From: Deltaproteobacteria bacterium
GTDB lineage: Bacteria; Desulfobacterota; Binatia; UBA12015
Length of the DNA: 36,391 bases
NCBI GenBank assembly: GCA_016874795.1
Contig: VGTG01000046.1
Coordinates: 1-36,391 of the forward strand
Reading direction: 5' to 3'
Both the position numbers and the translations under genes were made by a program. Below are positions 3,314 to 22,831 of the stretch, in pieces. Below the pieces are notes generated by a model, which was not told where the DNA came from, searched no databases, and worked only from the letters and a program-made list of their open reading frames with translations. Position 1 is the first letter of the stretch. Each line of letters starts with the position of its first letter.

Positions 3314-5305
3314 TCAGTCGGAGCCGAGCTTCAGGGCGATCCGGTAGTCGCTCGGCCGGTCGCCGAGACGAACCTCGGTGCCGATACCGATGCCGAGGAG
3401 CCCCCAGAAGAGGAGCTGCACCGCGATGTTGTTGAAGGGGTCGAAGCTCTGCATCGCGACGAGAAAGCCCAGGACCGAGAACATGATCGCCCAGAGCGTC
3501 GCGCGGAGACCCGGATCCGCGGTGCGCTGCTGCGTCGTGTAGAGCGAGTACAGCGCCGCGCCGAAGATCCAGAGCATCGCACCCCAGCCGAGAATCCCAT
3601 TCTCGAGGAGGAGCCGCAGGTTGCCGTTCGCCTGGAGCAGCGCCGCGTCCGAGGCGTGCGAGCCTAGAGGCACGAGCTCGCCGAGCGTGCGCGGTCCCTG
3701 ACCGAGGAGCAGCTCGCGCGTCGGCATCTTTGCGATCGCGTTACAGGCCTCCGTCGACTGGCCGCACAGCAGGGCCTGCCAGGAGAGGTGCCCGTCGGAG
3801 AAGGCGTGGAGCACCGCCAGGTACGCGAAGGGAGCGAGGACCACGAGCGAGGCGAACGCCCAGCGGACGCTCAGGTGGCGCCACGAGTACGCCGTCGCGA
3901 TCAGCGCGAGAGCGACCAGTCCACCGGGATGGCGCGTCAGGAGAATGCCGACGAGGCAGATCGTCGTGGAAGCGACCCAGAAGTCGCGTGCTTCCCGCGA
4001 CTGCGCGCGCGCGAGGCGGCAGAGGACGCACGGGACGCCGAGCATGAGATACGTCGCGAGAGCGATCGGGCTGCCGAGAGTCGAGGAGACGCCGACCGGG
4101 CTCACGCCGAGGCCGACGAGCGCCCGCGAGTCGCGCGGGATGTAATCCGCGACGACCATCTCGAACAAGCCGAGCGCCGAGATGGCGACCGAGATCAAAG
4201 CGACCGCCGTGACGGAGCTCCGCACGAAGCGGCGCGTGAACGTGCCGTTGATGACCGCGAGCATCACGATGAAGCCCGTGATCAGGTAGTACGTCGCACC
4301 ACGAACGGCCTGCACCGGCGACTCCGAGAGGAATGCCGAAGCGAGCGAGAGCAGCAGGAAGATCGCGATCGGCAGGTTCAGCGGAGTCCGGTAGAGGCTG
4401 ATCTTGTCGCGTGGCGCATGCCGCAGGATCATCCACAGCGCGCCGAAGGCGATCACGCCGTGCAGGGGATTCACCCGCGCGCCGAGCATCTCGATGTAGA
4501 GGTTCTCCATCACCGAGGCGGGGATGAAGGAGACGAAGAGCAGGAGGACGAGGAGGAACGCGCCGAGCGTGATCCAGCGGTTCAGGACCTTCAGCGCGGT
4601 CAGCCCGACGAGCTGCGCGTCGAGCCGCAGGCTCCGATGACTGATGTAGAGACGGTCGTAGCGGAGCTTGTTGCGCGGCGAGGTGAAGTAGCCGCCGCGC
4701 ACCTGCGCGAGACCGGTCATGCCCGGCGCCACGCGGAAGCGGTCCGCGTAGTCGGGGATCTCGTCGAGGTAGCGCTCGAGGAAGATCGGACGAAGCGGGC
4801 GCGGGCCGGCGAAGTTCATTTCGCCGCGCAGCACGTTGATGAGCTGCGGGACCTCGTCGAGCTTGGAGCGCTTCAGGAACTTTCCGATCGGCGTGTAGAA
4901 GTCGTCCTGCGCGCTGAGCAGACGCCCGCCGATCTGCCGCTCGGAACCTTCGCGCAGCGTCCGGAACTTGTACATCGTGTACAGCTTCTGGCTCCGGCCG
5001 GTGCGGACGCCCGAGTAGAAGAGCGGGCCTGGGCTCGTGAGCTTCACCGCGATCGCGACCAGCACGAGGATCGGGGAAAGAAGGACCAGTGCCGTGATCG
5101 CGAGGATGGCCTGGATCAGGTAGCGCGCCGTCGACTCGGGCGCTTCCGGCCGAATCGTGCGGACCAGCCGGTCCGGCGCGGGAGAAGCCGACGGGTTTAG
5201 GTTCACCGCCGTGTTGGGCACGGCGCGCAATGGAAGGGGTCGGGACACGGAAAAGGGTCCGGGCTGGTCTCTGGAAGAATGCATGAGCGGTTCCGACGTG
5301 GTCAA
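3314..5305 (-). CDS. Phosphoglycosyl transferase fused to O-antigen ligase/polymerase-like domain
   Basis: 663 residues. Residues about 60-245 are a monotopic polyprenyl-phosphate sugar transferase (WcaJ/PssY/PglC superfamily): a membrane helix at 62-88, SPGPLFY, YKFRTL, the catalytic Asp-Glu pair in KLDEVPQL (D150, E151), GPRPLRP and PGMTGLAQVRGGY. This enzyme type moves a sugar phosphate onto undecaprenyl phosphate and starts a glycan. Residues about 245-645 hold many transmembrane helices and a large periplasmic loop (GQGPRTLGELVPLGSHASD), like the Wzy/WaaL superfamily, which polymerises or ligates glycans. Such activities normally sit on separate proteins. The TTG start at 5305 overlaps the asnB stop (TTGA); an ATG at 5284 with GGAA upstream is an equally good start and costs seven residues. 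Last gene of the operon. Confidence 0.88.
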   Translation of the reverse strand: MTTSEPLMHSSRDQPGPFSVSRPLPLRAVPNTAVNLNPSASPAPDRLVRTIRPEAPESTARYLIQAILAITALVLLSPILVLVAIAVKLTSPGPLFYSGVRTGRSQKLYTMYKFRTLREGSERQIGGRLLSAQDDFYTPIGKFLKRSKLDEVPQLINVLRGEMNFAGPRPLRPIFLERYLDEIPDYADRFRVAPGMTGLAQVRGGYFTSPRNKLRYDRLYISHRSLRLDAQLVGLTALKVLNRWITLGAFLLVLLLFVSFIPASVMENLYIEMLGARVNPLHGVIAFGALWMILRHAPRDKISLYRTPLNLPIAIFLLLSLASAFLSESPVQAVRGATYYLITGFIVMLAVINGTFTRRFVRSSVTAVALISVAISALGLFEMVVADYIPRDSRALVGLGVSPVGVSSTLGSPIALATYLMLGVPCVLCRLARAQSREARDFWVASTTICLVGILLTRHPGGLVALALIATAYSWRHLSVRWAFASLVVLAPFAYLAVLHAFSDGHLSWQALLCGQSTEACNAIAKMPTRELLLGQGPRTLGELVPLGSHASDAALLQANGNLRLLLENGILGWGAMLWIFGAALYSLYTTQQRTADPGLRATLWAIMFSVLGFLVAMQSFDPFNNIAVQLLFWGLLGIGIGTEVRLGDRPSDYRIALKLGSD

Positions 5306-7212
5306 CCCACGAGTCGGGGTCGGACCTCCGTGGGGTCGACGTGGCTCAGCGCGTCGTGCCAGGTCTGGAACATGAGGAGCGTCCAGATGTCGCGGCTGTG
5401 GTCATGGGCAAGCGACTCGTGGTCGTCGATCAGCTTCTGAACGGCTTCCGGACGGAAGAGACCGCTGGCGCGGATCCGCGAGGGAGCGAGAGTATCGCGG
5501 ACCATCTCGCGGAGCGGGCCGACGATCCAGCTCGGGATCGGCACGTTGAAGCCCTGCTTGGGGCCGTGGAGCGTCTCGTGGGGCAGGCGATCCGCCATCA
5601 CCTTCCGGAGGAGATACTTCTTCTGGAAGCGCTTCATCTTGAGCGTACTCGGGACGGAAGCGACGAGCTCGACGAGCGGATGGTCGAGGAGGGGAACGCG
5701 GCCCTCGAGCGACGTTGCCATCGTCATGCGGTCCGCCTTGACGAGCATGTCGCCTTCGAGGCCGAGCCGCGTGTCGATCGCGAGGAGCTGTCCGAGGAGG
5801 TCGGTCTGGTCGACGTCGGCGATCGCCTCGCGATAGAGCCGTAGCGTCGGCTCGAGCCCATCTGCGGTCGAATCGTACAGCGTGCGCTTGCGGTCCTCGT
5901 CGAAGATCGCCTTCCACGAGAGATGAGCCTCGATCGGGTCGCGATCCGCGCCGGCGACGAAGCGCTTCGCCATGTAGTCGAAGCTCACCCTGCCGTGCGA
6001 GACCGGTAGGCGCTCGACGACGCGAGCGACGACGTTCCGTCCGAGCGCCGGGACGAGCCGGCGGTACCAGCCGGCGAGGACCGTCGCGGGGTACGTCTTG
6101 TAGCCGGCGAAGACCTCGTCGCCGCCCTCGCCTGAGAGAGCGACCGTCACGTGCTGGCGCGCGAGGCGCGAGACGCAGAGCACGGGGATCGCCGAGGAGT
6201 CGGCGTAGGGCTCGTCGAAGGAGCGGACGAGCTCCGGGACGAGAGAGGCCGCGTCCGGCGTCACGACGAGCTCGTGGTGCTCGGTCTCGAAGTGCTTCGC
6301 AGCGACGCGCGCGCGGTCGAGCTCGTTGAACGTCTTCTCCTCGAAGCCGATCGAGAACGTCTTCAGCGGTCCCGTGTGGAAGCGTCGCATGCACGAAACG
6401 AGGGTCGCGGAGTCGACACCGCCCGAGAGGAACACGCCGAGCGGCACGTCGGAGACGAGGTGGCTCCGGACCGCGTCGTCGAGTCGCTCGCGCAGCGCCT
6501 CGAGGACGACGCCCTCGCTGCGGAGAGACGGGTCCGCGCGCAGCTCGAGCTTCCAGTACTGCTCGGTGCGGATCTGTCCGTCCTCGACGATCAGTCGCGT
6601 GCCCGGCGCCAGCTTCCGCGCGTCGCGGAAGATCGAGGCGGGCGCGGGGACGTACGTCAACGTCAAGTAGTCGTGCAGGGCCTGCCGATCGATCGTGCGG
6701 TCGAGCCCGGCTGCGACGAGGCTCTTCAGCTCGGAGCCCCACACGAACCGGCGCCCGATTCGTCCGTAGTAGAGCGGCTTGATCCCGAGCCGGTCGCGCG
6801 CGAGGAGGAGGCGCTTTCGCGGCGCGTCCCAGAGCGCGAAGGCAAACATGCCCCGCAGATGCTCGACGCAAGCAGTGCCGTACTCTTCGTAGAGGTGGAC
6901 GATCGCTTCCGTGTCGCTGTTCGTCGCGAAGCGATGGCCCTTCTTCTCGAGGTCGGCGCGGACCTCCTGGAAGTTGTAGATCTCGCCGTTCTGCATCACG
7001 GCGAGCGTGCGGTCCTCGTTGAACAGCGGCTGGTTGCCGCCGGCGAGATCGATGATCGACAGACGCCGCATGCCCATGGCAAGCGGACCGTCGAGGAAGA
7101 TTCCTTCGTCGTCGGGACCGCGGTGAACGATCACGTCGCACATCGGCTTGATGTGCTCGCGTGTCAGCGTGGCCGAAGGGTCGAGGGCGAGCTGTCCTGC
7201 GATCCCGCACAT
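5302..7212 (-). CDS. asnB: Glutamine-hydrolysing asparagine synthetase-type amidotransferase
   Basis: 636 residues, full length for the family. Cys2 of MCGIAG is the class II glutaminase nucleophile, followed by HRGPDDEG and NGEIYN. The synthetase half has the ATP-pyrophosphatase loop SGGVDS (263-268) and SGEGGDEVFAGY. It would transfer glutamine-derived ammonia to an acyl-adenylate. Members in EPS loci of the XrtA/PEP-CTERM type are thought to amidate a uronic acid or similar carboxyl group rather than make free asparagine; I infer the same here from context. Three bases separate it from the deacetylase upstream, and its Shine-Dalgarno (GGAGAGTAGGA) overlaps that gene's stop codon. The fused glycosyl transferase overlaps its 3' end. 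Confidence 0.92.
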   Translation of the reverse strand: MCGIAGQLALDPSATLTREHIKPMCDVIVHRGPDDEGIFLDGPLAMGMRRLSIIDLAGGNQPLFNEDRTLAVMQNGEIYNFQEVRADLEKKGHRFATNSDTEAIVHLYEEYGTACVEHLRGMFAFALWDAPRKRLLLARDRLGIKPLYYGRIGRRFVWGSELKSLVAAGLDRTIDRQALHDYLTLTYVPAPASIFRDARKLAPGTRLIVEDGQIRTEQYWKLELRADPSLRSEGVVLEALRERLDDAVRSHLVSDVPLGVFLSGGVDSATLVSCMRRFHTGPLKTFSIGFEEKTFNELDRARVAAKHFETEHHELVVTPDAASLVPELVRSFDEPYADSSAIPVLCVSRLARQHVTVALSGEGGDEVFAGYKTYPATVLAGWYRRLVPALGRNVVARVVERLPVSHGRVSFDYMAKRFVAGADRDPIEAHLSWKAIFDEDRKRTLYDSTADGLEPTLRLYREAIADVDQTDLLGQLLAIDTRLGLEGDMLVKADRMTMATSLEGRVPLLDHPLVELVASVPSTLKMKRFQKKYLLRKVMADRLPHETLHGPKQGFNVPIPSWIVGPLREMVRDTLAPSRIRASGLFRPEAVQKLIDDHESLAHDHSRDIWTLLMFQTWHDALSHVDPTEVRPRLVG

Positions 7213-7215
7213 TTC

Positions 7216-8058
7216 CTACTCTCCTCCGCCCGCGCTCGCGGCCTGCGCCCCGCGCCAGCGCTGCTGCGCCGCGTGGAGCAGGTCGAAGCTCCCATCCAGC
7301 TTGTGTCGGAAGTCCCGCAGGGTGTCGTCGTTGGCGATGAACGTGCGGCGCAGGCTGAACGGGTGCGTGTCCCGCGTGACGCACCCGGGCATCGTCGTGC
7401 AGGCGAGCTCGTAGCCCGCTTCGCGCACGGCGTCCTTGACGCGGGCGTCGAAGTCGCCGCGCGGATAGCAGAACGTCCGCGCCTCGATCCCGGTGCGCTC
7501 GCGAATTGTCCGTCCGGACTCGGCGACCTCGTGCCGCAGGCACTCATCGTCGAGCGTCGTCAGGTTCGGGTGCGTCAGCGTGTGCGCGCCGAAGTCGACC
7601 CCGTGCCGGGCCATCTCCTCGACCTGCTCCCAGCGGAGAGGCGGAACGCCGCGCCGATCGCGCAAAACAGGAAGCTCGTCCGTTCCGATGTAGTCGACCG
7701 TGAGGAAGACCGTCGCGGGGATCTGCTCCTTCTGAAGGACGGGAAACGCGTTCGTGTAGTTGTCGGCGAACCCGTCGTCGAAGGTGACGACGACGCTCCT
7801 CTCGGGAAACTCGCGCTTCGCATCGAGATGCTCCCGGACCGCGGAGAGCGGCAGAAGGTGGAAGCCCTCGCGACGGAGGAGCGCCATCTGCTCCGCGAAG
7901 GCGCGCTTCGGGACGCAGGAGCGGTGCGGCTCGTCGTCGATGCGGTGATAGTAGATCACGCGCAGCGTGCCGGAGCGTCCGGGCTTCAGCCGTCGCACGA
8001 GGACGGCGGCTTCCGAAGCGGCGGTTCGCAGGGCGCGCGAGGTCCTGGATCGGACCAT
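7216..8058 (-). CDS. Polysaccharide deacetylase (NodB family), first of three
   Basis: 280 residues. NodB-fold motifs are clear: TFDDG at 92-96 (catalytic base and metal Asp), GAHTLTHPNL with H159 and H163 (metal ligands) and FCYPRGDFD. It would remove N- or O-acetyl groups from sugars. There is no clear signal peptide, only a basic N-terminus, so it may act at the inner membrane or cytoplasm, or be exported in another way. The ATG at 8058 overlaps the stop of the upstream glycosyltransferase (TGATG). The closing residues are rich in Gln, Ala and Gly. Confidence 0.88.
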   Translation of the reverse strand: MVRSRTSRALRTAASEAAVLVRRLKPGRSGTLRVIYYHRIDDEPHRSCVPKRAFAEQMALLRREGFHLLPLSAVREHLDAKREFPERSVVVTFDDGFADNYTNAFPVLQKEQIPATVFLTVDYIGTDELPVLRDRRGVPPLRWEQVEEMARHGVDFGAHTLTHPNLTTLDDECLRHEVAESGRTIRERTGIEARTFCYPRGDFDARVKDAVREAGYELACTTMPGCVTRDTHPFSLRRTFIANDDTLRDFRHKLDGSFDLLHAAQQRWRGAQAASAGGGE

Positions 8059-9263
8059 CAGGCGGCCTCCCGCGCGGTCGCTCCTCGGAAGATCTCGACG
8101 AGCTCTGCGACGGTGCGCGTCATGTCGAAGTTCTCGACGACGCGGCGACGTCCTTCTGCGGCGAGGCGCGCGGCCTTCTCGGGATCGGCGAGAAGCGCTC
8201 CGATCGCGTCTGCGAGCGCCTTCGGATCCCTCTCGGGAACGAAGAGCCCGCTCTTCCCGTGCTCGACGAGCTCCGCCATCGAGGGCAGCTCGGTGCACAC
8301 GACCGGTGCTCCCGCCGCGAGACCTTCGATCAGGATGTTCGGGATGCCGAAGTGATCCTCGTGGTGCGCCGGAAGCGCGACCACGCTCGTCTCGAGGTAG
8401 GCGGGGATCAGGTCCTCTTGCGGCCGATAGCCGGGCAGATCGACGCGGTCCTCGAGGCCGAGCGAGCGGATCAGGGCCTCGAGCGCGGGGCGCTCTTCGC
8501 CTTCGCCGATGATCTCGAGTCGCGCGTTCGAGCCGGCGTCGCGCAGCAGCGCGATCGCGCGGATGAGGTCGTCGAACCCCTTGCAGGTGCGCAGCGTGCC
8601 GACGCTCAGCACGTGTCCCAGCTGCCGCGTCGCGCCGTTCGGCCGGAAGCGGGCCAGGTCGACGCCGTGGTAGACGGTCCGGATCCGCTCCGCGTGCGCG
8701 GGCGCGATCTCCGCGAGGTAGCCCCGATTGTACCGCGTGCAGGTGATCACGAAGCGCGCGGCGGCGAGCTTCTCGGGAAGCATCGCGTGGTGGACGAAGA
8801 TGTCCGTCGCGTGCCCGGAGAAGCTGAAGGGAAGACCCGTCAAGCGCGAGATCACGAGCGCGGCGGTCGCCGGGTAGGTCGCCCAGTTCGCGTGGATGTG
8901 GCGGACGCTGCGCTTCACCATGTCCTCGGCGAAGTAGAGGCTCTGCGGCAGGACCGCGATCGACTTCGCGAGCGCGTTCGGCATCGAGCGGTGACCGGCG
9001 ACGATCTTCGCGGTGACCCCGAGCGCCGCGCCCGGGTGCCGGCCGAGGGCGCGAAGTGCGGCTCCCGTACGGGCGCCGGGCGATCCGGGGTACACGGTCC
9101 GCTCCAGGAGAACGCGAGCGTCCTCGTGCACGCGCCAGCCCTTCGGTGGCGAGAGCAGGGAGTAGATCGTGAAGTCGAGTCCGCTGTCGTGGAGGCCGCG
9201 GAGCTCGCGTAGAAAGTAGGCGTCGACCTGCCGCGGGAACTGATTGACGATGAACGCGAGCAT
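8058..9263 (-). CDS. Glycosyltransferase family 4 (first of three GT4)
   Basis: 401 residues with a GT-B fold. The N-terminal half starts with FIVNQFP and contains the acceptor-side HIHANWATYPATAAL and FSGHATDIF. The C-terminal donor domain has VYHGVDLARF, SVGTLRTCKGFDDLI, IIGEGEERPALE and the GT4 E-x7-E region (HHEDHFGIPNILIEGLAAG). The HxHxxW and HATDI pattern resembles WcaL/AmsK-like EPS glycosyltransferases. It would transfer a nucleotide-activated sugar to a lipid-linked intermediate; the sugar cannot be inferred. Three bases separate it from the upstream GT4. Confidence 0.9.
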   Translation of the reverse strand: MLAFIVNQFPRQVDAYFLRELRGLHDSGLDFTIYSLLSPPKGWRVHEDARVLLERTVYPGSPGARTGAALRALGRHPGAALGVTAKIVAGHRSMPNALAKSIAVLPQSLYFAEDMVKRSVRHIHANWATYPATAALVISRLTGLPFSFSGHATDIFVHHAMLPEKLAAARFVITCTRYNRGYLAEIAPAHAERIRTVYHGVDLARFRPNGATRQLGHVLSVGTLRTCKGFDDLIRAIALLRDAGSNARLEIIGEGEERPALEALIRSLGLEDRVDLPGYRPQEDLIPAYLETSVVALPAHHEDHFGIPNILIEGLAAGAPVVCTELPSMAELVEHGKSGLFVPERDPKALADAIGALLADPEKAARLAAEGRRRVVENFDMTRTVAELVEIFRGATAREAA

Positions 9264-9266
9264 GGC

Positions 9267-10499
9267 TCAGGCGGCCGCGGCTCGCTGCGTGCGGGCGGCG
9301 AGCGTTCGATAGAGCCGCTCGGTCTGGTCGACCATCGGCGCGATCGCGAAGAGCGTCTCGACGCGCTTCTGACCGGCACGACCGAACCGGTCGCGCAGGT
9401 CGGCGGACTCGGCGAGACGCGTGATCGCGTTCGCGAGCGCCGCCGGATCGCGAGGAGGAACGACCAGCCCGGTCTCGTCCTGCTGGATCACCTCGGCGTT
9501 CCCGCCGACGTCCGTCGCAGCGACGGCTCGCCCGGCCGCCATCGACTCGATCACGGTGTTCGAGAGGCCCTCCTTCACCGAGGAGAGCACGGAGAAGTCG
9601 ACGCTCTGCAGCCATTCGGCGGAGTCGGTGCGGAAGCCGGTGAAGTGGACCCGATCGGCGATGCCGAGCTCGCGACACAACCGGCGGAGGTTCTCCTCCT
9701 CGCGCCCGCCGCCCACGACGACGAGGTGCAGGAGAGGGACGCGGTCGCGGATCAGGGCCATCGCCTGCAGCAGCGTGCCGTGGTCCTTCGCGGGCTCGAT
9801 GCGCGCGACGACACCGGCGACGACGGCGTTCTTCGGGATGCCGAGCTCGTCGCGGCGAACGCGCGGATCGCACGGCGCGCGGAAGCGGTCGAAGTTCACG
9901 CCGTTGTAGATCGTCACGACCTTCTCGGGAGCGAGCCCGCCGCGCTCCAGCAGGTAGCGCCGCACGGCTTCGGAGTTCGCGATGATGCAGTCGGTGGAGC
10001 GCGCGAGCCAGCGCCCGAGGACGCGCTTGTAGGTCTCCTCCCAGATGTCGACGTTGCGCTCGGAGGCGAGCACGATCGGAATGCCCGCGAGCCGCGCCGC
10101 GAGGCGCGCCCAGGTGTTCGCGGTCCAGAGGTACGTCTGGACGATGTCGTAACGTTCGCGACGCATCCGGCCGGCGAGCCGCAGGACGAGCCCGGGATCG
10201 GCCTTGAGCCGCTTCGGCTCCTGATGGACCGGGACGCCGAGGGAGGCGATCTCCGCCGCCTTCCGCCCGTAGCGGAAGCAGCACACGTGCGGCTCGAACT
10301 GCTCGCGATCGATGTGGCGGACGAGCTCGAGGATCTGCTGCTCGGTTCCGCCGATGTCGAGCTCGTCGATGACGAAGAGGACGCGCAGCGGTGGTCCCAA
10401 CGGCGAGCTCCGTGCGGGCCGGGGCGTCCCGGGGCGCGGGCGCCACTGAAGGATCTGGGCCCCCCCGCTCCGGTTCGGCGAGGTTTCGTTGTCGTTCAT
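9267..10499 (-). CDS. Glycosyltransferase family 4 (second)
   Basis: 410 residues. A roughly 38-residue Pro/Arg-rich extension precedes the GT-B fold (LRVLFVIDELDIGGTEQQILELV). The donor domain shows TIYNGVNFDRF, GVVARIEPAKDHGTLLQA, VVVGGGREEENLRRL, and SSVKEGLSNTVIESMAAGRAVAATDVGG, the classical GT4 E-x7-E signature. The GGTEQQ start is typical of GT4 proteins in XrtA-type EPS loci. It ends in a run of Arg and Ala. The extension could reflect a late true start, but no better start with a Shine-Dalgarno was seen. Confidence 0.9.
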   Translation of the reverse strand: MNDNETSPNRSGGAQILQWRPRPGTPRPARSSPLGPPLRVLFVIDELDIGGTEQQILELVRHIDREQFEPHVCCFRYGRKAAEIASLGVPVHQEPKRLKADPGLVLRLAGRMRRERYDIVQTYLWTANTWARLAARLAGIPIVLASERNVDIWEETYKRVLGRWLARSTDCIIANSEAVRRYLLERGGLAPEKVVTIYNGVNFDRFRAPCDPRVRRDELGIPKNAVVAGVVARIEPAKDHGTLLQAMALIRDRVPLLHLVVVGGGREEENLRRLCRELGIADRVHFTGFRTDSAEWLQSVDFSVLSSVKEGLSNTVIESMAAGRAVAATDVGGNAEVIQQDETGLVVPPRDPAALANAITRLAESADLRDRFGRAGQKRVETLFAIAPMVDQTERLYRTLAARTQRAAAA

Positions 10500-10559
10500 G
10501 AATACTACGCTCGAGGCGCGCCGGCCCGACTCTTCTGGCGGCCGGTCCCCGAGAAGGGT

Positions 10560-11567
10560 TTAGCCGGGCGCGCCCCGCTGTTCGGAGCTGCGGCCGGTCT
10601 GCCGCGCCAAGGTCGCGACGCCGGCTTCGAGATCGAGAGCCGGAGCCCAGCCGAGGTCCTCGCGAGCGGCGCGGGTGTCGTAGCGGAGGCTCTCCGTCGC
10701 GCGCCGGAGCTTGTAGCGGGTGAGCGGCAGGCTCCGCCGAGCCAGGCGGCTCGCGACCTCGCAGCCGAGTGCGACCGGATAGAAGAAGGCGGAGGAGAGA
10801 TAGGTCGGGCGCATCGCGGACGCGCCGGACGAAGCGAGCTGGGCGAAGTAGTCGTCCTGCGTGACGGCGCCGTCGATCACGTTGTAGGCGGCGCCTCGAC
10901 GGCCGCGCTCGCCGGCGAGGGCGATCGCTTCGCACGCGTTGTCGACGTGCGTCAGCGGCAGGAGAGCCTTCCGGGAGCCGACCACGATGCGGCGACCACG
11001 TCCGCGCGGCACGGGGAAGGAGAGGCGGCCGAGGAAGGGCTTCGCCTCCGCTCCGTAGAGGATCCCGGGGCGGATGACGATCACGTCGAGCTTCGAGCTC
11101 TCCGCGAAGCGACGGACGCGCTCGTCGGCGCGCGCCTTCGACCACGCGTAGGCGCCGCGCTGCTCGATCGCGGGATCGAGCGGCGTGTCCTCTCGGATCT
11201 CCGCAGCGGCTGCATCGGATCCGTAGATACCCGCGGAGCTGACGTACACCAGCCGGCGCACGCCCGAAGCCTCCGCGGCTTCGAGCAGGTTCTCGGTGCA
11301 GGTGACGTTGTCGCGCTCGAACTCCGCGCGCGAGCCGCCGGTGCTGACGCGCGCGGCGACGTGGTAGATCGTGTCGATCCCGTGCGTCGCGCGGGCGAGC
11401 GCCTTCGGATCGTCGAGGCCGCCCCAGACGACCTCGGAGATCTCCTTGGGAATGCGCTTGAGATCGGTGCCGACGCGCACGAGCGCGCGCAGCGATCGAC
11501 CACGCGCCGCGAGGCGCGCCGCGAGGTGACGCCCGAGATAGCCGGTCGCTCCGGTCAGGAGGTCCAT
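10560..11567 (-). CDS. NAD-dependent epimerase/dehydratase (extended SDR)
   Basis: 335 residues. The N-terminal TGATGYLG is the dinucleotide-binding GxxGxxG. The active site is Ser in VSSAGIYG (110-111) with Y140-x3-K144 in GAYAWSKA. The family works on nucleotide sugars or related substrates as epimerase, dehydratase or reductase. The sequence is also near the 3-beta-hydroxysteroid-dehydrogenase-like branch, so the exact reaction is open. The chosen ATG at 11567 lies within the 3' end of the upstream Gfo/Idh gene (13-base overlap) with GAGAGGAACC directly before it. An open frame continues far upstream but only by overlapping that gene. Confidence 0.88.
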   Translation of the reverse strand: MDLLTGATGYLGRHLAARLAARGRSLRALVRVGTDLKRIPKEISEVVWGGLDDPKALARATHGIDTIYHVAARVSTGGSRAEFERDNVTCTENLLEAAEASGVRRLVYVSSAGIYGSDAAAAEIREDTPLDPAIEQRGAYAWSKARADERVRRFAESSKLDVIVIRPGILYGAEAKPFLGRLSFPVPRGRGRRIVVGSRKALLPLTHVDNACEAIALAGERGRRGAAYNVIDGAVTQDDYFAQLASSGASAMRPTYLSSAFFYPVALGCEVASRLARRSLPLTRYKLRRATESLRYDTRAAREDLGWAPALDLEAGVATLARQTGRSSEQRGAPG

Positions 11568-12664
11568 GGTTCCTCTCGTGCATGGCCGTTGCCCTTGCCG
11601 GCGTCGGTGGCCGCTCCGGGCGAGAAATGCTTCTCGATGATGCGCAGCAGGCGGACGTTCTCGCGGCCCGCGGCGCCGTCGACCGGCGAGGGATCGCCGC
11701 GATCGAGGCTCCGATAGAACTCGCGGATGTTCTGTCCGATGCCGGGATAGAGCTTCATCCGGCGGAGTGCCACGCCGATCACGTTCTCGGCGGTGGCCTG
11801 CACGAGCTGCGCCGCCGGCTCGAGGTTCGCGGTGAGCTTGCCGACCAGCTTCGGCAGCTTCCGCACGCGCTCGAGGAGGATCGTCATCGTGTTGAGATTG
11901 ATTCGAGCGGTCGCCTTCGTGCCGAAGAGGTTCAGATGATTCAGGTAGGGCTGCGCGCCCATCGAGAAGACGACGTAGCCGTAGGTCTGGTCCCCCTCGA
12001 GCAGGATGCGGATCTCGCGCAGGAGGCCGTCCGCACCGAGCGGCTTCCCGGCGATCTGAACGCCGTGGACGTCGCCGAGGAACTCGGTCGCGAGGTAGAG
12101 CGGGTGCGGACCGAGGTTGTAGAGGGGCGCGAACGGATCGGCGACGCTCCAGTGCTTGCCGTCGCCCGGCGCAGCTCCCCCTTCGACCGGGTTGACGCCC
12201 TGATGCGCCTCGACGGACACGATGTCGCCGAGGACGCCCTTGTCGACGAGAGCGCGGGCTTTGCGGATCACCGGGTCGAAGAGCCGGTTGTGATCGATGC
12301 ACAGCCGGCGGCCGTAGCGCTCGGCGGCCTCGATCATGCGATCGCAGTCGGACACGCGAAGGGCCATCGGCTTCTCGACCATGACGTTCGCGCCGCGCTC
12401 CATCGCTGCGATCGCGAGATCGGCGTGCGTGTGCGGCGGCGTCAGGACGTGGACGATGTTAGGCTCCTCGCGCCGCATCATCTCGTCGATGTCGTCGTAC
12501 GCGTTCGGGATGTTTCGCGGTCGCGCGAACTCCTCCGCGCGGTCGCGATCGGCGTCGCACACGGCGACGACGCGCGCATTCGGTACTCCGCGTGCGTAGC
12601 CGTGGTGCACGACCGCGATGCGTCCTGCGCCGATCAGCGCGACGCGATGCGAGCGGTCGGTCAT
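11555..12664 (-). CDS. Gfo/Idh/MocA-family oxidoreductase
   Basis: 369 residues. The N-terminal Rossmann fold has GAGRIA (12-17) and the family's EKP motif (E97-K98-P99 in VMVEKPMAL). The second half is the alpha/beta substrate domain with NLGPHPLYL. Relatives oxidise or reduce sugars and nucleotide sugars (for example WlbA on UDP-GlcNAcA), and a pair with an SDR epimerase suggests synthesis of a rare sugar. The ATG at 12664 has GAGAGGAA upstream; an upstream in-frame ATG at 12748 would overlap the radical SAM gene and is rejected. The C-terminal tail (KGNGHAREE) is low in structure. Confidence 0.9.
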   Translation of the reverse strand: MTDRSHRVALIGAGRIAVVHHGYARGVPNARVVAVCDADRDRAEEFARPRNIPNAYDDIDEMMRREEPNIVHVLTPPHTHADLAIAAMERGANVMVEKPMALRVSDCDRMIEAAERYGRRLCIDHNRLFDPVIRKARALVDKGVLGDIVSVEAHQGVNPVEGGAAPGDGKHWSVADPFAPLYNLGPHPLYLATEFLGDVHGVQIAGKPLGADGLLREIRILLEGDQTYGYVVFSMGAQPYLNHLNLFGTKATARINLNTMTILLERVRKLPKLVGKLTANLEPAAQLVQATAENVIGVALRRMKLYPGIGQNIREFYRSLDRGDPSPVDGAAGRENVRLLRIIEKHFSPGAATDAGKGNGHAREEPWTS

Positions 12665-12689
12665 CGATTCCTCTCCCGGGTCGGCGCGC

Positions 12690-13889
12690 TCATCCGAGAG
12701 TCGGGAGGTAGCGCCAGAATTCGTTGTTGAGAGCGCAGCACTTCGCACACTTCGGGAAGAGCCGGCGCTTCTTCAGAGCCTTCCGGAACGTCACGTAGGA
12801 GTCGTTGTTCCAGATCTCCCGCACGCTCTGCTGTCGGACGTTCCCGAAGGCCACGTCGATCGAGCAGGAGTAGACGTCGCCGTACGGGCTGATGCGGAAC
12901 GTCTTCCAGGGGTAGAAGCACTTCTCGACGAAGGCGTACTCGTCGTCGAGGAAGCGGCGCTCCATCTGGTCGGGCGTCGTCAGGGGCGGGCCGAAGCCGA
13001 TCGGGATGCCGTACTCCTCGCTCTTCTTCTTCGCCTTCTCGGCCTCCTCGAAGAGCGTGTCGCCGTTCACCTGCCGGAGGTACATCGGCAGGTCCTGGTC
13101 CTCTTCCTTCTTGTGCACGGGAAGCGGGATCATCTGCTCGGTCTCTCGGTCGTGCTCGGGCGTCGTGTAGAACATGTAGTCGAAGTCGACGGTGTCGACG
13201 CCGGTGTCCTTCAGCCAGTCGAGCACCTCGCTGTAGCGGTGCTGGTTCAGCGCGGAGATCGTCACCGTGATGCCGATCTTCGGGCGCCGGACGCCGAGCT
13301 CCTGCTTGGCCGCCTGGATGTTGCGGATGCCCTCGAGGAGACGGCGGAAGCTGCCCTTGCCACGACGGATCTCGTCGTGCAGATCGTCCGGTCCGTCGAT
13401 CGAGATCGACAGGGCGTGCGGTTTCAACGAGACCAGGCGTCGCGCCTCGTCCGGCCGCAGGAACCAGCCGTTCGTGTTCACGCAGAGATGGATCGGCGTC
13501 TTCGTGATGTGCTCGACGATCTCGAAGACGTCCTTCCGGAGGAACACCTCGCCGCCCGTGATGGTCATGTCCTCCACGCCCATCGCCGCGATGTCGTCGA
13601 CGACGCGCTTGATCTCTTCGGTGCTGAGCTCCGCCCGCTGACGCTCCTTGATGTAATCGGGGTGCGTCTTGTCGTGCATCATCCGGGGGATGTCGAGCGG
13701 GCACATCTGGCACGACAGGTTGCAGCGGAGCGTCAGCTCCATCGTGACGGACTGCGGCGTCCACGCCTTCCCGCGCGCGACGGTGTACGGGACCCAGTAC
13801 TTGTAGGATTTGAGGTTGCTCTTCGTGAGCCCTCGGTCCCGCAGCCAACCCTTCATGTCGTCGAGTACGGTGTTTTCGTCGTTGGTCAT
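12690..13889 (-). CDS. Radical SAM/SPASM-domain enzyme
   Basis: 399 residues. The CxxxCxxC cluster motif is C56-x3-C60-x2-C63 (RCNLSCQMC), followed by TITGGEVFL (the GGEP-like SAM contact, here GGEV). The C-terminal third has a SPASM-type Cys set: CFYPWKTFRISPYGDVYSCS, then FPKCAKCCAL. Such proteins generate a 5'-deoxyadenosyl radical and bind auxiliary Fe-S clusters. Many modify peptides, but some act in cell-surface glycan loci, with substrates mostly unknown. Nothing peptide-like is encoded next to it, so a sugar or lipid-linked substrate is the better guess here. A small palindrome overlaps its ribosome-binding site. Confidence 0.9.
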   Translation of the reverse strand: MTNDENTVLDDMKGWLRDRGLTKSNLKSYKYWVPYTVARGKAWTPQSVTMELTLRCNLSCQMCPLDIPRMMHDKTHPDYIKERQRAELSTEEIKRVVDDIAAMGVEDMTITGGEVFLRKDVFEIVEHITKTPIHLCVNTNGWFLRPDEARRLVSLKPHALSISIDGPDDLHDEIRRGKGSFRRLLEGIRNIQAAKQELGVRRPKIGITVTISALNQHRYSEVLDWLKDTGVDTVDFDYMFYTTPEHDRETEQMIPLPVHKKEEDQDLPMYLRQVNGDTLFEEAEKAKKKSEEYGIPIGFGPPLTTPDQMERRFLDDEYAFVEKCFYPWKTFRISPYGDVYSCSIDVAFGNVRQQSVREIWNNDSYVTFRKALKKRRLFPKCAKCCALNNEFWRYLPTLG

Positions 13890-13891
13890 TG

Positions 13892-13905
13892 CTGACTCCA
13901 GTCAG
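13892..13905 (-). promoter_or_regulatory. Palindrome covering the radical SAM ribosome-binding site
   Basis: On the minus strand CTGACT-GG-AGTCAG stands two bases before the ATG at 13889 and contains the GGAG ribosome-binding site in its centre. In RNA only a short stem (CTGA with TCAG around CTGGAG, or GACT with AGTC) can form. It could tune translation or be a coincidence. Confidence 0.25.
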
Positions 13906-13932
13906 TCCGTCCTGGGAGATGGCGTACGCGGA

Positions 13933-14721
13933 TCACAGGAAGCGGCGGCCCTGCTGGCGCAGGCGCAGTCCGTCCTCGCGAGTCGGAAAGGAAAAGTAGG
14001 TCGCCTGGCTGCGGTCGTTCGGCTGGGTCGTGATCGCCCCCTGCTCGAGGCGGTCGATCGCGTCGACGATCAGCCGGGCGCCCGTCGCCTTGGTCTTTCG
14101 AATGATCGTGTCCTGGGTATCGTCCGGCTCGATCGGGACCCGCTCCTGTAGGAGGATCGGTCCGTCGTCGAGCTCTTCGTTCATGAAGTGGACGGTCGCA
14201 CCCGTTTCCTTCTCGCCGTTGGCGAGCACCCAGAAGCTCGGGAGACGGCCGCGGTACCGCGGCAGCAGAGCTCCGTGGACGTTGATGCAGCCGAGGCGGG
14301 GAAGGGCGAGGATCTCGCTCTTGAACTTCTGGCTCGCGTTGATCGAGATCACGAGGTCGAGGGAGAGCTTGCGCAGCGTGTCGAGGTACTCGCGTCCGTT
14401 CACGCTCTTCGTCTCGTAGAACGGGACCTCGTACTGCTGCGCGACACCGCGAACCGAGTAGTGGCCCGGGAGGAGGACGCGCGACGACGCCACGGCGAGC
14501 GCGCGGCGCGTCGCGTAGCGAAAGGACTGGCGCAGGAACTGGCCCGGGCCGTACAGCGCGAGATGGTCACGCAGGGTCGACGTCCACGTCTGCTTCGGCA
14601 TCAGCTCCGGGAGGATCGTGATTCCAGCGATGTTCGCGCGACGATGGCGCAGCACCGTGTGGAGGAACTGCGGCAGATACAGGCAGTCCTCCTGCGTGAT
14701 GATGAAGGCACGTAGTCCCAT
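13933..14721 (-). CDS. Formyltransferase (methionyl-tRNA formyltransferase-like fold, probably sugar-modifying)
   Basis: 262 residues. The formyltransferase catalytic triad is present: N147 and H149 in CINVHGALLPRYRG and D185 in ELDDGPIL, with GATVHFM between. The family moves a formyl group from N10-formyltetrahydrofolate to an amine. It lacks the C-terminal tRNA-binding domain of Fmt and sits inside an EPS operon, so an amino-sugar substrate (as for ArnA, VioF or WlaRD) is inferred. The C-terminal segment (TQPNDRSQATYFSFPTREDG) resembles linkers in glycan formyltransferases. The ATG at 14721 is the natural start after a 66-bp gap, in which I see no clear element. Confidence 0.85.
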   Translation of the reverse strand: MGLRAFIITQEDCLYLPQFLHTVLRHRRANIAGITILPELMPKQTWTSTLRDHLALYGPGQFLRQSFRYATRRALAVASSRVLLPGHYSVRGVAQQYEVPFYETKSVNGREYLDTLRKLSLDLVISINASQKFKSEILALPRLGCINVHGALLPRYRGRLPSFWVLANGEKETGATVHFMNEELDDGPILLQERVPIEPDDTQDTIIRKTKATGARLIVDAIDRLEQGAITTQPNDRSQATYFSFPTREDGLRLRQQGRRFL

Positions 14722-14787
14722 GCGCGGCCTAGACCCCGGCCGCCATCTTGGTGGCTGGACGAGACGAAGACAAGACGAAAACCCGGC

Positions 14788-15657
14788 TCACGAGTGGAGC
14801 CATCCCCGTTGTGCGAGGACGTCGCGCATGGGGGCGAAACGGAAGTCCGAGAGGAGGCGGCGGAGCTTCGACTCCATCGAATCGAGCCGGATGTAATGGG
14901 TCGAAATACCACGTTTGCCGCGGCTCTTGAGGCGCGGCTGCTGCGTATCGATCTCCCACGGATGGAGATAGACCAGCGCCGGCTCGCCCTCGCGATTCAC
15001 ACGGCGCATGCCCCAGCGCATGTACTGGTACGGCAGGAGGCGAAGGTAGGCGCCGCCGCCCAGAGGCAGGTTCCGGCTCCCGAAGCGCGTCGTCGTCATC
15101 GGGAACTCGACGAGCTTCCGGCGACCGGCCTGGTGGATGACGAACGGGAAACGAAGCGCGCCGGGAATGCCGTAGAGGGAGTCCTGGACCGGGAAGATGC
15201 TCGAATCGTACTCGAGGCCGGCCTCGAGCATCACGTCGAGCGCCCACATCGACTTCGTGGTCACCGAGAAGGACGGGGCGCGATAGCCGTACGCCTGACG
15301 TCCGAGGATCTTGTGCAGGATCTCCTGCGAGCGCTCGAGGTCGCGGCGATAGAGGTCGCGACCCTGCTCGTACAGAAGCCGATGCGAGTAGCCGTGCGTC
15401 GCGATCTCGTGTCCCTCGGCCGCGATCTCCTCGACGAGAGCGGGATGCCGCTCCGCGTTCCACGTCAAGATGAAGAACGTTCCCTTCACCTTGAACTCGC
15501 CGAGGATGCCGAGGATGCGGCGCGTGTTCGCGACGACGCGGCTTTCGTAGCGGTCCCACTCGTCGAGGCGGACCTGATCCTCGAAGTCGGAGACCTGATA
15601 CCAGTCCTCGACATCGACGGAGAACGCGTTCATCACGGGTTGGCTCTGCGCGGTCAT
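14788..15657 (-). CDS. XrtA/PEP-CTERM-locus polysaccharide deacetylase with DUF3473
   Basis: 289 residues. The early SVDVEDWYQ motif, THGYSHRLLYEQ (metal His), GYRAPSFSVTTKS and the C-terminal DUF3473 region (PGALRFPF...TTTRFGSRNLPLGGGAYLRLLP...YLHPWEID) match the deacetylase subfamily that marks PEP-CTERM EPS loci. It would deacetylate an amino sugar of the polymer or lipid intermediate. The ATG at 15657 overlaps the upstream GT2 stop (ATGA); an internal ATG at 15633 is an alternative start and gives MNAFSVDVEDW, the more usual N-terminus. This gene and the ExeA-like ATPase are the strongest evidence for calling the locus XrtA-type. Confidence 0.92.
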   Translation of the reverse strand: MTAQSQPVMNAFSVDVEDWYQVSDFEDQVRLDEWDRYESRVVANTRRILGILGEFKVKGTFFILTWNAERHPALVEEIAAEGHEIATHGYSHRLLYEQGRDLYRRDLERSQEILHKILGRQAYGYRAPSFSVTTKSMWALDVMLEAGLEYDSSIFPVQDSLYGIPGALRFPFVIHQAGRRKLVEFPMTTTRFGSRNLPLGGGAYLRLLPYQYMRWGMRRVNREGEPALVYLHPWEIDTQQPRLKSRGKRGISTHYIRLDSMESKLRRLLSDFRFAPMRDVLAQRGWLHS

Positions 15658-16856
15658 TCGCGAGCTCCCTTCGAGGTCGCCGCGACGGCGCCCGTCTCGA
15701 ACGGGCGCTCTGCGGTCTGCCAGCGACCGAGCTCGGAACCCGTCAACACCTTCCACCACCCCATCCCCGCGGCGAGATTCGCGATGCCGAAGTACACCGC
15801 CGGCGAGAGCCGCCGCTTGAGGCTGCCTTCCGGAAGCAGGAACGCCATGGGTATAGCCGCATACACGAGAAGCTGGCCGGCGAACACGAGCCGATAGAAC
15901 AGGCCGCCCGCGAGCGCCGCCCCCGCGAAGATCATCAGGAACCAGACGGGCGTGAGATACCGGAGGCCCTTTCGCGAGAGAAGCTCCCAGCCGAGCAGCC
16001 ACGCGCGCTCGCGGACGATGTCCGGCCAGACCGCGGCGATGCCGCGGATCCCGCGCCCGATGATGCGGGAGCGTCGGCGAAGCTCGTCGCCCAGGTTGCG
16101 CGAGCCCGCCTCGATCGAGAGCGCGCCCGGCTCGTAGAGGCAGTCGTGGCCCGCGGCGCCGACCCAGATCGGCTGCACCATGTCGTTGCAGACGTCGTTC
16201 GGAATCGGGCGGCAGAGGCCGGTGCGGATCCCGAAGATCGAGCCATTCGCGCCGAGGAGCCGGCCGAGCCCGCTCTCGAGCCGCTTCTGGAGCTGATCGA
16301 GCTCCCAGTAGCGGTTGTAGCCTTCCGCGATCGGGTTCTCGTTGAAGTTCCGGTAGACGAGCTCTCCGCAGACGCTTCCGACTTTCGGATCGGCGAAGGG
16401 CTGGACGAGCTTCCGGAGAGCGTCCTGCTGGTACATCCCGTTCGCGTCCGTGAAGACGATCACGTCTCCGCGCGCGCGCGGCAGCGTGTCGTTGAGGCAG
16501 AGGTTCTTGCCCCGGTTCACGGGGTAGTCGTGCAGCACGACGCCGCGATCGGCGTAGCTCTGCGCGATCTCGTTCGTGCGATCGGTCGAGCCGTCCGAGG
16601 CGACGATCACCTCGAGGCGGTCCCGCGGATAGTCGAGCTCGACGGCGTTCTCGAGCTTCCGGTCGAGGACCTCCTCCTCGTTGTAGGCGGAGATCACGAG
16701 GCTGACGCGCGGTAGCTCGGCTTCGCTCGCGTAGGAGGCGGCGGTCCGACGTCCGCGCACGAGCGCGATGCCCGCGAGCAGCAGCGGGTAGCCGACGTAC
16801 TGGTAGGCGAGAGTGAGGGTGCCCACCCAGAAGAGAATGGCGGCGAACGTTTCCAT
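15654..16856 (-). CDS. Membrane glycosyltransferase family 2
   Basis: 400 residues. One N-terminal transmembrane helix (AILFWVGTLTLAYQYVGYPLLLAGIAL) is followed by a GT-A domain: VSLVISAYNEEEVL, ASDGSTDRTNE, a GKNLCLN segment and the metal motif region VFTDANGMY. The C-terminus has three or more hydrophobic segments (about 295-370). The arrangement resembles BcsA/IcaA-like or WcaA/EpsD-type GT2 proteins, but no QxxRW processive motif is visible, so it is probably not a synthase. The ATG at 16856 was preferred over the upstream in-frame ATG at 16928, which would overlap the previous gene. Confidence 0.88.
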   Translation of the reverse strand: METFAAILFWVGTLTLAYQYVGYPLLLAGIALVRGRRTAASYASEAELPRVSLVISAYNEEEVLDRKLENAVELDYPRDRLEVIVASDGSTDRTNEIAQSYADRGVVLHDYPVNRGKNLCLNDTLPRARGDVIVFTDANGMYQQDALRKLVQPFADPKVGSVCGELVYRNFNENPIAEGYNRYWELDQLQKRLESGLGRLLGANGSIFGIRTGLCRPIPNDVCNDMVQPIWVGAAGHDCLYEPGALSIEAGSRNLGDELRRRSRIIGRGIRGIAAVWPDIVRERAWLLGWELLSRKGLRYLTPVWFLMIFAGAALAGGLFYRLVFAGQLLVYAAIPMAFLLPEGSLKRRLSPAVYFGIANLAAGMGWWKVLTGSELGRWQTAERPFETGAVAATSKGARE

Positions 16857-16884
16857 CAGATTCTCGATCCGTCGACGATCGGGT

Positions 16885-18075
16885 TCACGACCGGCCCGCT
16901 TCTCCCGGGCTCTGTCCTCCTCGTCCACGTTCGACGGAGGAGCTGCTCGGCTTGAGGCCCGCGCGTGCGAGCTCGCGGCGGTAGAGCTTGTCGAGCGCCT
17001 GCAGCATGGCCTCGAGGCTGAAATCGCGCCGCGCGCGGATCGAGCCGCCGCGGCGCAGCCTCTCGGCGAGGATCTCTTCGGTGAGAACCCGCTCGATGGC
17101 CTTCGCCAGGGCAGCGGCGTCGCGCGTCGGAACGACGAGGCCGGATTCGCCGTGCTCGACGATCTCGGCGCTGCCGCCCGCGGAGGTCGTCACCACCGGG
17201 CAGCTCGCGGCCATCGCTTCGAGCAGAGCGTTCGGCATGCCCTCGATGACGGAGGAGAGGACGTAGCAATCGAACGCGCGCATCCGGGTCGCGACGTCGT
17301 CGCGCTGGCCGAGGAATCGCACCGTGCTCTCGAGGCCGAGCTTCTTCGAAAGCGATTCGAGCTCGCTTCGTAGCGATCCGTCGCCGACGATGTCGACGCG
17401 TAGGTTGGGGATTCTCTCCCGCACGAGGGCGAAGGCCTCGAGGGCGAACTCGTAGCCCTTCTTCCAGCCGAGACGGCCGACCATCCCGACGAGAGGGCCG
17501 TTGCCGCGTGGATCCGGCTCCGCCTCCGGCGCGGGGCGGGGAGCGTACGCGCTCGGAAGCGGTACGCCGTTCGGGATGAGCTCGATCTTGCTCGGCGAGC
17601 AGCGCTCGTGCTCGAGCACGATGTTGCGCACGGCGATGGCGTTCACGGTGACGCGATCGGCGAAGCGATTCGAGAGCCACGCGGCGACGCGGTGATCGAG
17701 GCGCGCGTAGCGATCGAGGCTCCGCTTGCTCACCAGCGTGACCGGCCGGCGCGAGAGTCGTCCGACCATCGCGGCGAGGAAGTTCCCCTCGAAGAGGTAC
17801 CCTTGGACGATCGGGACGTTCCGCGACTGGAGATCGCGCGCGACGCGGCGCACGGCGCTCGCCGTCGCGAGGCTCATCATGGTCGAGCGGATTCCGAAGC
17901 TTCGCACGGGCACGCCGAGCTTCTCGAAGTCGGCCGCGAGCTCACCGGGATCTGCCGCGGCGGTCCACATCTCGAAGGAGTAGCGCTCCGGATCGAGACC
18001 CTGGACCACCTGGAGAAGGTGTCGCTGGGCGCCGCCCACGTGCAGGTGGTCGATGACGTAGGCGATCCGCGTCAT
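16885..18075 (-). CDS. Glycosyltransferase family 4 (third)
   Basis: 396 residues. GT-B fold starting TRIAYVIDHLHVGGAQRHLLQV, the GGAQ/GGTE start of many XrtA-locus GT4 proteins. The donor domain contains LIPNGVPLP, GMVGRLGWKKGYEFALEA, IVGDGSLRSELE, and SSVIEGMPNALLEAMAASCPVVTTSAGG with the E-x7-E pair. The tail is Ser- and Gly-rich. The nucleotide-sugar donor cannot be predicted. A strong hairpin lies between it and the deacetylase upstream. Confidence 0.9.
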   Translation of the reverse strand: MTRIAYVIDHLHVGGAQRHLLQVVQGLDPERYSFEMWTAAADPGELAADFEKLGVPVRSFGIRSTMMSLATASAVRRVARDLQSRNVPIVQGYLFEGNFLAAMVGRLSRRPVTLVSKRSLDRYARLDHRVAAWLSNRFADRVTVNAIAVRNIVLEHERCSPSKIELIPNGVPLPSAYAPRPAPEAEPDPRGNGPLVGMVGRLGWKKGYEFALEAFALVRERIPNLRVDIVGDGSLRSELESLSKKLGLESTVRFLGQRDDVATRMRAFDCYVLSSVIEGMPNALLEAMAASCPVVTTSAGGSAEIVEHGESGLVVPTRDAAALAKAIERVLTEEILAERLRRGGSIRARRDFSLEAMLQALDKLYRRELARAGLKPSSSSVERGRGGQSPGEAGRS

Positions 18076-18096
18076 TCCGAGCGTCCGGCGGGAATC

Positions 18097-18120
18097 GAGG
18101 GAGCGAGCACGCGCTCCCTC
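18097..18120 (-). promoter_or_regulatory. Intercistronic nine-pair stem-loop inside the EPS operon
   Basis: GAGGGAGCG (18097-18105) and CGCTCCCTC (18112-18120) form a perfect stem with a six-base loop. It overlaps the stop codon of the upstream deacetylase gene and lies 22 bases before the next start. There is no T tract after it on the minus strand. It may be an RNA-processing or partial-termination point that sets relative expression; this is inference. Confidence 0.4.
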
Positions 18121-19189
18121 ACGCGCCGATCTTGCCGCGCTCGATGTCCAGCGTGAACTCGGGCAGCGCGCCGTGTCGGCTGTAGATCCCGATGCGCTTC
18201 AGCGCGAAGGCATCGTCGCCGGCTTGCACGCTCCCGGTGAGAGACGTCGTGGCGGAATCGAAGTGCGCGTCGCGGACCATGCTCTTGACGGCCTCGGTCA
18301 GGTGCGCGCTGCCGCGGCCGTTCGGGTAGGAGAAGTGCCGAACCGGCTCGTTGATCTGCTCCGCGAGCGCGTCGCGCGAGCCTTCAATCTCGCGGCGCGC
18401 TTCGTCCGGGGTCGCGTTGGGCAGGTTCGGATGACTGAGCGTGTGGGCGCCGAAGATCATGCCGGCGCGGTGCATCTCCCGAACGTGGTCCCAGGACATC
18501 ATGATCCTGGAGAGCGGAGAGAGATCGTCGATGCCACCGGCCACGCGCACGGCCTCGAGAAGCTCGAGACGCGTCGCGGTGGGGACGTTCTTCATCGTGA
18601 CGATCAGCTTCGTGAAGGCCTCGCGGCGCTCTTCGGGCGTCCGCAGCGGAAGCCGGAACGCCATCGGCTCGCGCGTCTCGAGAACGGGAACCGTCGTCGT
18701 GAAGATCACGAAGCGAAGAAGCCCAGTCCACAAGACCGCGAGGTTATCGATGCAGTTCGTCGTGACGTAGAACGTCGCGTTCAGGCCGTGCCGCGCGAGG
18801 ATGGGAAAGGCGCGCGTGTAGTTGTCGAGGTACCCGTCGTCGAACGTCAAGGCGACCGCCTTGGCCGGCAACGGCTCGCCCTCGATCAGCCTCGTCACCA
18901 TCTCGTCGAGAGAGATCACGCGGTAGTGGCGCTTCAGATACGCGCACTGGCGATCGAAGTGCTCCGGCGCCACCGCGAGCCCCGGATCGAGGCAGAGATG
19001 AGTGCCGTCGGCCGCGGTGCTCACGGAGTGATAGCGGAGAATCGCCGCGCGTCCGGCGAGAACCGTACGCGCGAGAGAAGAGATCCCGCCGTGATGGATC
19101 GCGAGCTTGGCCAGATTGCGGATTACGCTTCGGATGGTCGTGTCTCCTGCGCTGCGGCTACGGCGAGCGTCCGAAATATGCCGCCGCAC
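18119..19189 (-). CDS. Polysaccharide deacetylase (NodB family), longer form
   Basis: 356 residues. RYHSVS, TFDDGYLDNY, GAHTLSHPNL and FSYPNGRG give the NodB metal site. An insert of roughly 100 residues (LAVLWTGLLRFVIFTTTVP... to LSPLSRIMMSWDHV) between the Asp and His motifs makes it longer than the 7216-8058 enzyme and partly hydrophobic. It is typical of a subgroup in EPS loci. The GTG start at 19189 lies eight bases after the Wzz gene stop, without a clear ribosome-binding site, so translation may be coupled. Substrate unknown. Confidence 0.85.
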   Translation of the reverse strand: MRRHISDARRSRSAGDTTIRSVIRNLAKLAIHHGGISSLARTVLAGRAAILRYHSVSTAADGTHLCLDPGLAVAPEHFDRQCAYLKRHYRVISLDEMVTRLIEGEPLPAKAVALTFDDGYLDNYTRAFPILARHGLNATFYVTTNCIDNLAVLWTGLLRFVIFTTTVPVLETREPMAFRLPLRTPEERREAFTKLIVTMKNVPTATRLELLEAVRVAGGIDDLSPLSRIMMSWDHVREMHRAGMIFGAHTLSHPNLPNATPDEARREIEGSRDALAEQINEPVRHFSYPNGRGSAHLTEAVKSMVRDAHFDSATTSLTGSVQAGDDAFALKRIGIYSRHGALPEFTLDIERGKIGA

Positions 19190-19197
19190 GTGGGCGA

Positions 19198-21803: not shown

Positions 21804-21822
21804 GTTTCAAACTTCCCGGCTG

Positions 21823-22768: not shown

Positions 22769-22831
22769 GGATTCGACCCGGACGGCGCACCTCTCCTTCG
22801 AGGTGGTCCGTCCCATCGCGTAAGGTCGGTG

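Follow-up and report, generated by a model that had tools for sequence, protein, structure and literature searches.

The window, which is the whole 36,391-nucleotide stretch of DNA analysed here, carries on its minus strand a gene of 663 codons plus stop (3314..5305), which the listing of open reading frames starts at a TTG and ends with the stop codon at 3314-3316. An alternative start is the ATG at codon 8. The single continuous frame described in the earlier note, which left the strand unstated, was confirmed; translation of 3314-5305 on the plus strand is interrupted by stops. The product joins a monotopic phosphoglycosyl transferase (PGT) to a membrane domain with the WaaL/Wzy_C fold. An N-terminal extension predicted with low confidence (residues 1-57, 5135..5305, minus) precedes the PGT catalytic domain (residues 58-245, 4571..5134, minus), in which an Asp150-Glu151 pair is encoded at 4853..4858. 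The membrane domain follows with almost no linker (residues 246-663, 3317..4570, minus).

Directly upstream lies a gene for an asnB-like homologue of XrtA/PEP-CTERM amidotransferases (5302..7212, minus), whose TGA stop overlaps the TTG start of the fusion gene as TTGA. Next on the minus strand is a glycan locus (7216..18075) encoding polysaccharide deacetylases, three GT4 proteins and one GT2 protein, a Gfo/Idh oxidoreductase, a radical SAM protein, a formyltransferase and an epimerase-like protein, the last named by eye only and with no NCBIfam match. It ends at a slot of 43 bases (18076..18118, minus) that is occupied by a Wzy_C gene of approximately 1.55 kb in five relatives (G001, G002, G004, G005 and G008). 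A perfect 9-base inverted repeat (gagggagcg/cgctccctc) spans 18097-18120 in the slot gap, starting inside the upstream stop codon. The block at the higher coordinates beyond the slot (18119..25160, minus) encodes a deacetylase, a Wzz/chain-length protein, a BY-kinase, a Wza-type export protein and an XrtA-associated ATPase. The order of genes is the same in the five relatives, as far as their contigs reach. A parallel-β-helix (NosD-like) gene on the plus strand (1223-3295) is convergent with the fusion gene, and its homologue keeps the same place in these five genomes.

Among profile models, the XrtA-type deacetylase TIGR03006 exceeded its cut-off in the window locus, and TIGR03108, TIGR03007, TIGR03027 and TIGR03015 (amidotransferase, chain-length, export and ATPase models) matched below theirs. 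From its gene content the locus looks like one for an exopolysaccharide (EPS) of the XrtA/PEP-CTERM type. The exosortase model TIGR02602 had no match in six genomes and equally none in control genomes, so that this search is uninformative.

The N-terminal part of the protein is an intact monotopic PGT, as the earlier note had proposed from an Asp-Glu pair at 150-151 and the motifs GPRPLRP and PGMTGLAQVRG, all of which were found. Bac_transf (PF02397) matches residues 63-241 (E 2.1e-49, 167.9 bits against a curated cut-off of 27), and two NCBIfam models, EPS_sugtrans and WcaJ, give matches that fall short of their curated cut-offs. Residues 47-243 of a structure model resemble WbaP (Z 20.4) and PglC (Z 18.5) in the PDB. 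Asp150 and Glu151, which we take to be the catalytic dyad of a monotopic PGT, are invariant across 21 aligned fusions. Given its family membership and intact dyad, this domain, best read as the cytoplasmic catalytic part of a small-type PGT, would be expected to initiate the repeat unit by transferring a sugar-1-phosphate to undecaprenyl phosphate. The catalytic domain, the dyad and the fold are thus shared with the small and large monotopic PGTs (PglC, WbaP, WcaJ; PF02397). However, large PGTs have a CoA_binding_3 domain in front, which was confirmed in two scanned for comparison (L181 and L036), whereas Pfam found no domain of this type ahead of the catalytic domain of the window protein, which instead has a WaaL-like membrane domain behind. 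In the model, only the 57-residue low-confidence extension stands where large PGTs have a membrane bundle.

The model was built with AlphaFold2 from 21 aligned fusions (mean pLDDT 71, pTM 0.61); it is weak in residues 1-53 (pLDDT < 50) and in residues 241-300, just past the junction (55-64). In a PDB structure search the C-terminal half (model residues 246-650) has the fold of WaaL (7tpg_B, VIA Z 23.4, rmsd 4.5 over 348 residues), the next-best matches being FtsW and RodA (Z 11.0-13.4). Lower rows of this search, mostly 14-3-3 proteins (Z < 8), were taken as chance helical matches. Profile-profile comparison by hhalign against 28 Wzy_C proteins from the class gave a probability of 99.2 (E 2.3e-19, 338 columns). 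The N-terminus of WaaL is cytoplasmic, so that a PGT placed ahead of a WaaL fold is topologically sound.

Family searches were less responsive. Pfam found no Wzy_C (PF04932) in the window protein, even at E 1, and no family at all in its C-terminal half alone, and a PDB sequence search with a profile of the C-terminal half gave no match up to E 10. With E values up to 1 admitted, 10 of 21 fusion C-terminal halves matched Wzy_C, the best at 5.5e-8, and among 14 fusions scanned singly only L025 exceeded the Wzy_C cut-off (32.1 against 31.7 bits). The Wzy/WaaL similarity anticipated in the earlier note therefore holds by structure prediction and profile-profile comparison but not by Pfam family search. 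With respect to the WaaL/Wzy_C proteins (PF04932), the C-terminal half shares fold and profile but has other residues at the positions of the catalytic triad, as set out below.

The count of such architectures that the earlier note had suggested was made on the class of the window's genome, Candidatus Binatia. The fusion is present in 26 of 148 genomes, with the C-terminal half matched at E 2.2e-98 or better and the PGT domain in the same open frame, of at least 632 residues, in every case; all are complete except that of G003, which is cut by a contig end. By family, the fusion occurs in 12 of the 14 genomes of the window's own family (f1), in six of f6, in six of f8 and in two of f5 (genus g40). 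Six more genomes of the class have weak matches to the C-terminal half (E from 7.5e-11 to 6.9e-7), the frames being 103 to 453 residues long, and in the two of these that were inspected the protein is of the ordinary Wzy_C type and has an HN motif. Among 395 genomes drawn from the phylum both halves were matched in three only, all of the class and including the window's genome, and in one other genome the PGT part, but not the C-terminal half, gave a match above the cut-off; since this search scored the three best candidates of each genome against a cut-off of 1e-60, it is no proof that the fusion is absent outside the class. A database scan of named genomes, which rested on two short peptide patterns, returned 17 loci, 16 of which apparently correspond to fusion contigs of the class genomes; the other (L045) could not be tied to one. 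L045 (CAMBZJ010000012.1) belongs to a metagenome-assembled genome titled Klebsiella pneumoniae, a title that looks mislabelled, and carries the C-terminal half of the fusion at 62% identity.

Could the joined frame be an artefact of assembly, or of a frameshift between neighbouring genes? Neighbouring PGT and Wzy_C genes do exist in the class, and at three loci they share one frame broken by one stop. Nevertheless, the 26 orthologous open-frame fusions come from different genomes and are unbroken inside, and at the junction N242 R243 W244 and T246 L247 G248 are invariant in the 21 that were aligned. An artefactual stop or frameshift near residue 245, which the earlier note had named as one possible refutation, is thereby contradicted, and this explanation is scarcely credible.

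Phylogenetic trees were built for the PGT half (55 rows, including 22 of the 26 fusions) and the C-terminal half (51 rows, including 21 of 26), and in each tree the fused halves form one side of a 100/100 branch; near-duplicates L017, L026, L031 and L082 were omitted from both trees and the partial L018 from the second. As each half forms one clade, a single origin fits, and this is probably an old gene fusion of the Binatia. The halves of L080 and L175 (G103, genus g54) are placed discordantly, the PGT half with f6/f8 (82/85) and the C-terminal half with f1 (100/99), possibly through exchange or because of weak signal.

At 15 loci of the class a Wzy_C frame comes after a PGT frame as long as that of a large PGT, and the two such PGTs that were scanned (L181 and L036) do contain CoA_binding_3. 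At 10 of these the candidate Wzy_C start lies no more than 14 bases from the PGT stop, and at L033, L169 and L193 both genes share a reading frame, the Wzy_C part beginning directly behind the single stop codon between them. A fusion would result if such a pair lost one stop codon. These adjacent pairs combine the same two families, but as two proteins and with halves outside the fused clades. Since the fused halves form clades of their own beside the rows of the pairs, the present pairs look unlike direct parents, although the placement of the C-terminal half is weak.

In Escherichia coli WaaL, R215, R288 and H338 are important (PMC3643930), and His338 has been likened to the proton-abstracting Asp of RodA (PMC10449877). 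In a joint alignment the window protein has P460 (3926..3928, minus), S517 (3755..3757, minus) and A559 (3629..3631, minus) at these positions. Among the reference Wzy_C proteins, 35 of 36 have R at each of the first two positions and 36 of 36 have H at the third, the last count being partly circular as 28 class-wide references were chosen by a pattern that demands His. The other eight, Wzy_C genes of the fusion loci chosen without that pattern, have H in 8 of 8; ten had been extracted, and those of G032 and G039 were dropped because the wrong frame had been taken. When 59 Wzy_C loci were checked without selection and gaps were disregarded, 45 of 51 had the His, 47 of 50 had R at the R215-like column (one X being among the three exceptions) and 45 of 51 had R at the R288-like column; some of the 59 extracted frames look wrong.

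The fusions depart from this pattern in steps. None of the 12 f1 fusions has the canonical residue in any of the three columns, all 12 having P at the first, and the same is true of L080-L082 (0 of 3 each). The aligned f6/f8 fusions retain both arginines in 11 of 11 and the His in 0 of 11. Over the class the canonical His is lost in 26 of 26 fusions and all three residues in 15 of 26. The 11 f6/f8 fusions have a His three residues past the lost one (NMH), where f1 has Asn. All 12 f1 fusions conserve R/K458, R539, N560 and N562, and all 12 keep both residues of a Cys514...Cys521 pair (3743..3766, minus), which could form a disulfide.

Simple NG86 counts gave dN/dS values of 0.07-0.38 for the C-terminal half in 12 close pairs of fusions (0.07-0.21 in the seven f1 pairs), one pair being compared over only part of it, and of 0.07-0.29 for the PGT half of the same 12 pairs. 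These values indicate that the C-terminal half is not decaying but is under purifying selection.

In the five relatives, the slot gene between a GT4 gene and a deacetylase gene encodes a Wzy_C protein with SR, R and HN motifs and all three triad residues. The window's genome has its ortholog on another contig (G000:C69:21784-23310), with 67% identity to that of G001. A separate Wzy_C is present on the fusion contig in 8 of the 12 f1 genomes and is canonical in the five inspected; the remainder are the window's genome and G003, G011 and G012, whose fusion contigs (5.8, 17.6 and 3.9 kb) seem to end before the slot. A Wzy_C also lies near the fusion in the f6/f8 genomes G020, G024, G030, G032 and G039, and in G025 and G052 it shares the contig of the fusion. 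In G067 (f5) there was no separate Wzy_C in the 25 kb around the fusion. Genes of the flippase family PF01943 are separate from the fusion in all six genomes searched. The match is approximately 1.4 kb past the fusion in G005 and G008 and approximately 6.6 kb from it in G024, whereas the window's genome, G001 and G020 have theirs on contigs other than that of the fusion.

The earlier note had suggested that the first and last steps of lipid-linked glycan assembly are tied together in one protein. Both domain identities on which this rested stand, but the functional reading is not supported for this protein, as the triad is replaced in 12 of 12 f1 fusions and relatives have a separate Wzy_C with all three residues. 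Given that its triad is lost, that a separate Wzy_C exists and that selection on it continues, we favour a non-catalytic f1 C-terminal half over a rewired ligase. As a membrane anchor, a dock or a module binding lipid-linked glycan, such a half is a reading that we hold to be about evenly balanced between right and wrong. It might anchor the protein in the membrane, as the N-terminal part does in large PGTs, and offer a binding site for the carrier lipid or a lipid-linked glycan. It might also dock the Wzx/Wzy/Wzz machinery and so place initiation at the site of polymerisation, with polymerisation itself left to the separate Wzy_C protein. Against a non-catalytic half, the basic residues R/K458 and R539 are conserved nearby in f1, G067 seems to have no separate Wzy_C close to its fusion, and a missing WaaL triad need not mean a lack of activity. 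Considering the basic residues of f1, and the arginines and offset His of f6/f8, a shifted active site is possible.

Such a site is what a bifunctional enzyme would need, and this is the most substantial competitor, albeit a rather unlikely one. Here the PGT would initiate, the C-terminal half would act as a ligase (or transfer glycan to a lipid or protein acceptor) and the separate Wzy_C would be the polymerase, with R/K458 and R539 standing in for the two arginines and another residue for the His. WaaL being the best fold match is in line with this, as are the purifying selection, the arginines and offset His retained in the 11 aligned f6/f8 fusions and the R/K458, R539, N560 and N562 kept throughout f1; two Wzy_C-like domains per locus would suit one polymerase and one ligase. 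However, the His that every fusion lacks has been described as analogous to the proton-abstracting Asp of RodA (PMC10449877), and 15 of the 26 lack the entire triad. That the C-terminal half is itself the polymerase of the locus is very doubtful. The window's slot lacks a Wzy_C gene, and the C-terminal half is the only Wzy-like domain found encoded in the window, but a Wzy_C survives elsewhere in the genome and stands beside the fusion in relatives. It is likewise improbable, if marginally less so, that the C-terminal half recycles or flips the carrier lipid for the fused PGT by handling undecaprenyl phosphate or diphosphate. Proteins of the WaaL/RodA group do bind undecaprenyl-diphosphate lipids (PMC10449877), yet the Pfam matches include no phosphatase or flippase family, and genes of a flippase family are encoded separately in the six genomes searched.

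Returning to the non-catalytic C-terminal half, a wider scenario can be put forward tentatively, with rather more against it than for it at present. A PGT may have captured a Wzy/WaaL-type enzyme that became a ligase-fold pseudo-enzyme binding lipid-linked glycan, which would place initiation at the periplasmic polymerisation complex and let the first and last stages of EPS assembly influence each other by physical feedback; the f6/f8 fusions would then represent an intermediate state. What the analysis shows is the fusion itself, its two folds, its conservation, the loss of residues and the existence of a separate Wzy_C gene; its catalytic state, scaffold role and partners are inferred. A pseudo-enzyme acting as a scaffold has a precedent among EPS pathways in EcpK of Myxococcus, a pseudo-kinase which, like the fusion, has a catalytic fold without key residues and has been retained (PMC12004946). 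The two differ in that EcpK has a kinase fold, not that of a glycosyltransferase, and that its scaffold role is backed by interaction data.

Fusions of other domains to PGTs are known. In Bi-PGTs the catalytic domain carries further functional domains, joined to it at one end or the other (PMC10942596), and PGT fusions with sugar-modifying and regulatory domains have been mentioned (PMC12802240). By its architecture the fusion qualifies as a Bi-PGT, but the available parts of these two papers mention sugar-modifying and receiver partners and not one with a WaaL/Wzy fold. A literature search, mostly of titles and the openings of abstracts and with the main PGT survey (O'Toole 2021) outside its scope, recognised no PGT-Wzy/WaaL fusion; within these sources a WaaL/Wzy-fold partner was not found described. 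Another fusion of PGT type occurs in the same genome, at G000:C48:2427-3701 (L002:62-1336, plus strand), where Bac_transf stretches are joined to a WecG/TagA/CpsF glycosyltransferase domain. Its best Bac_transf stretch covers profile positions 91-173, no D-E dyad was seen by eye, and a complete PGT gene adjoins it.

Initiating PGTs work at one end of Wzx/Wzy pathways and the periplasmic Wzy and WaaL proteins at the other, each on its own face of the membrane. To our knowledge, it is not settled whether they share one complex. That a natural PGT-WaaL fusion has been kept in several families of one class suggests that the two work close together, and the fusion provides a single protein in which coupling of initiation and late steps can be tested. 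Across sister families the catalytic residues are lost by degrees, which provides a natural gradation between an enzyme and a possible scaffold.
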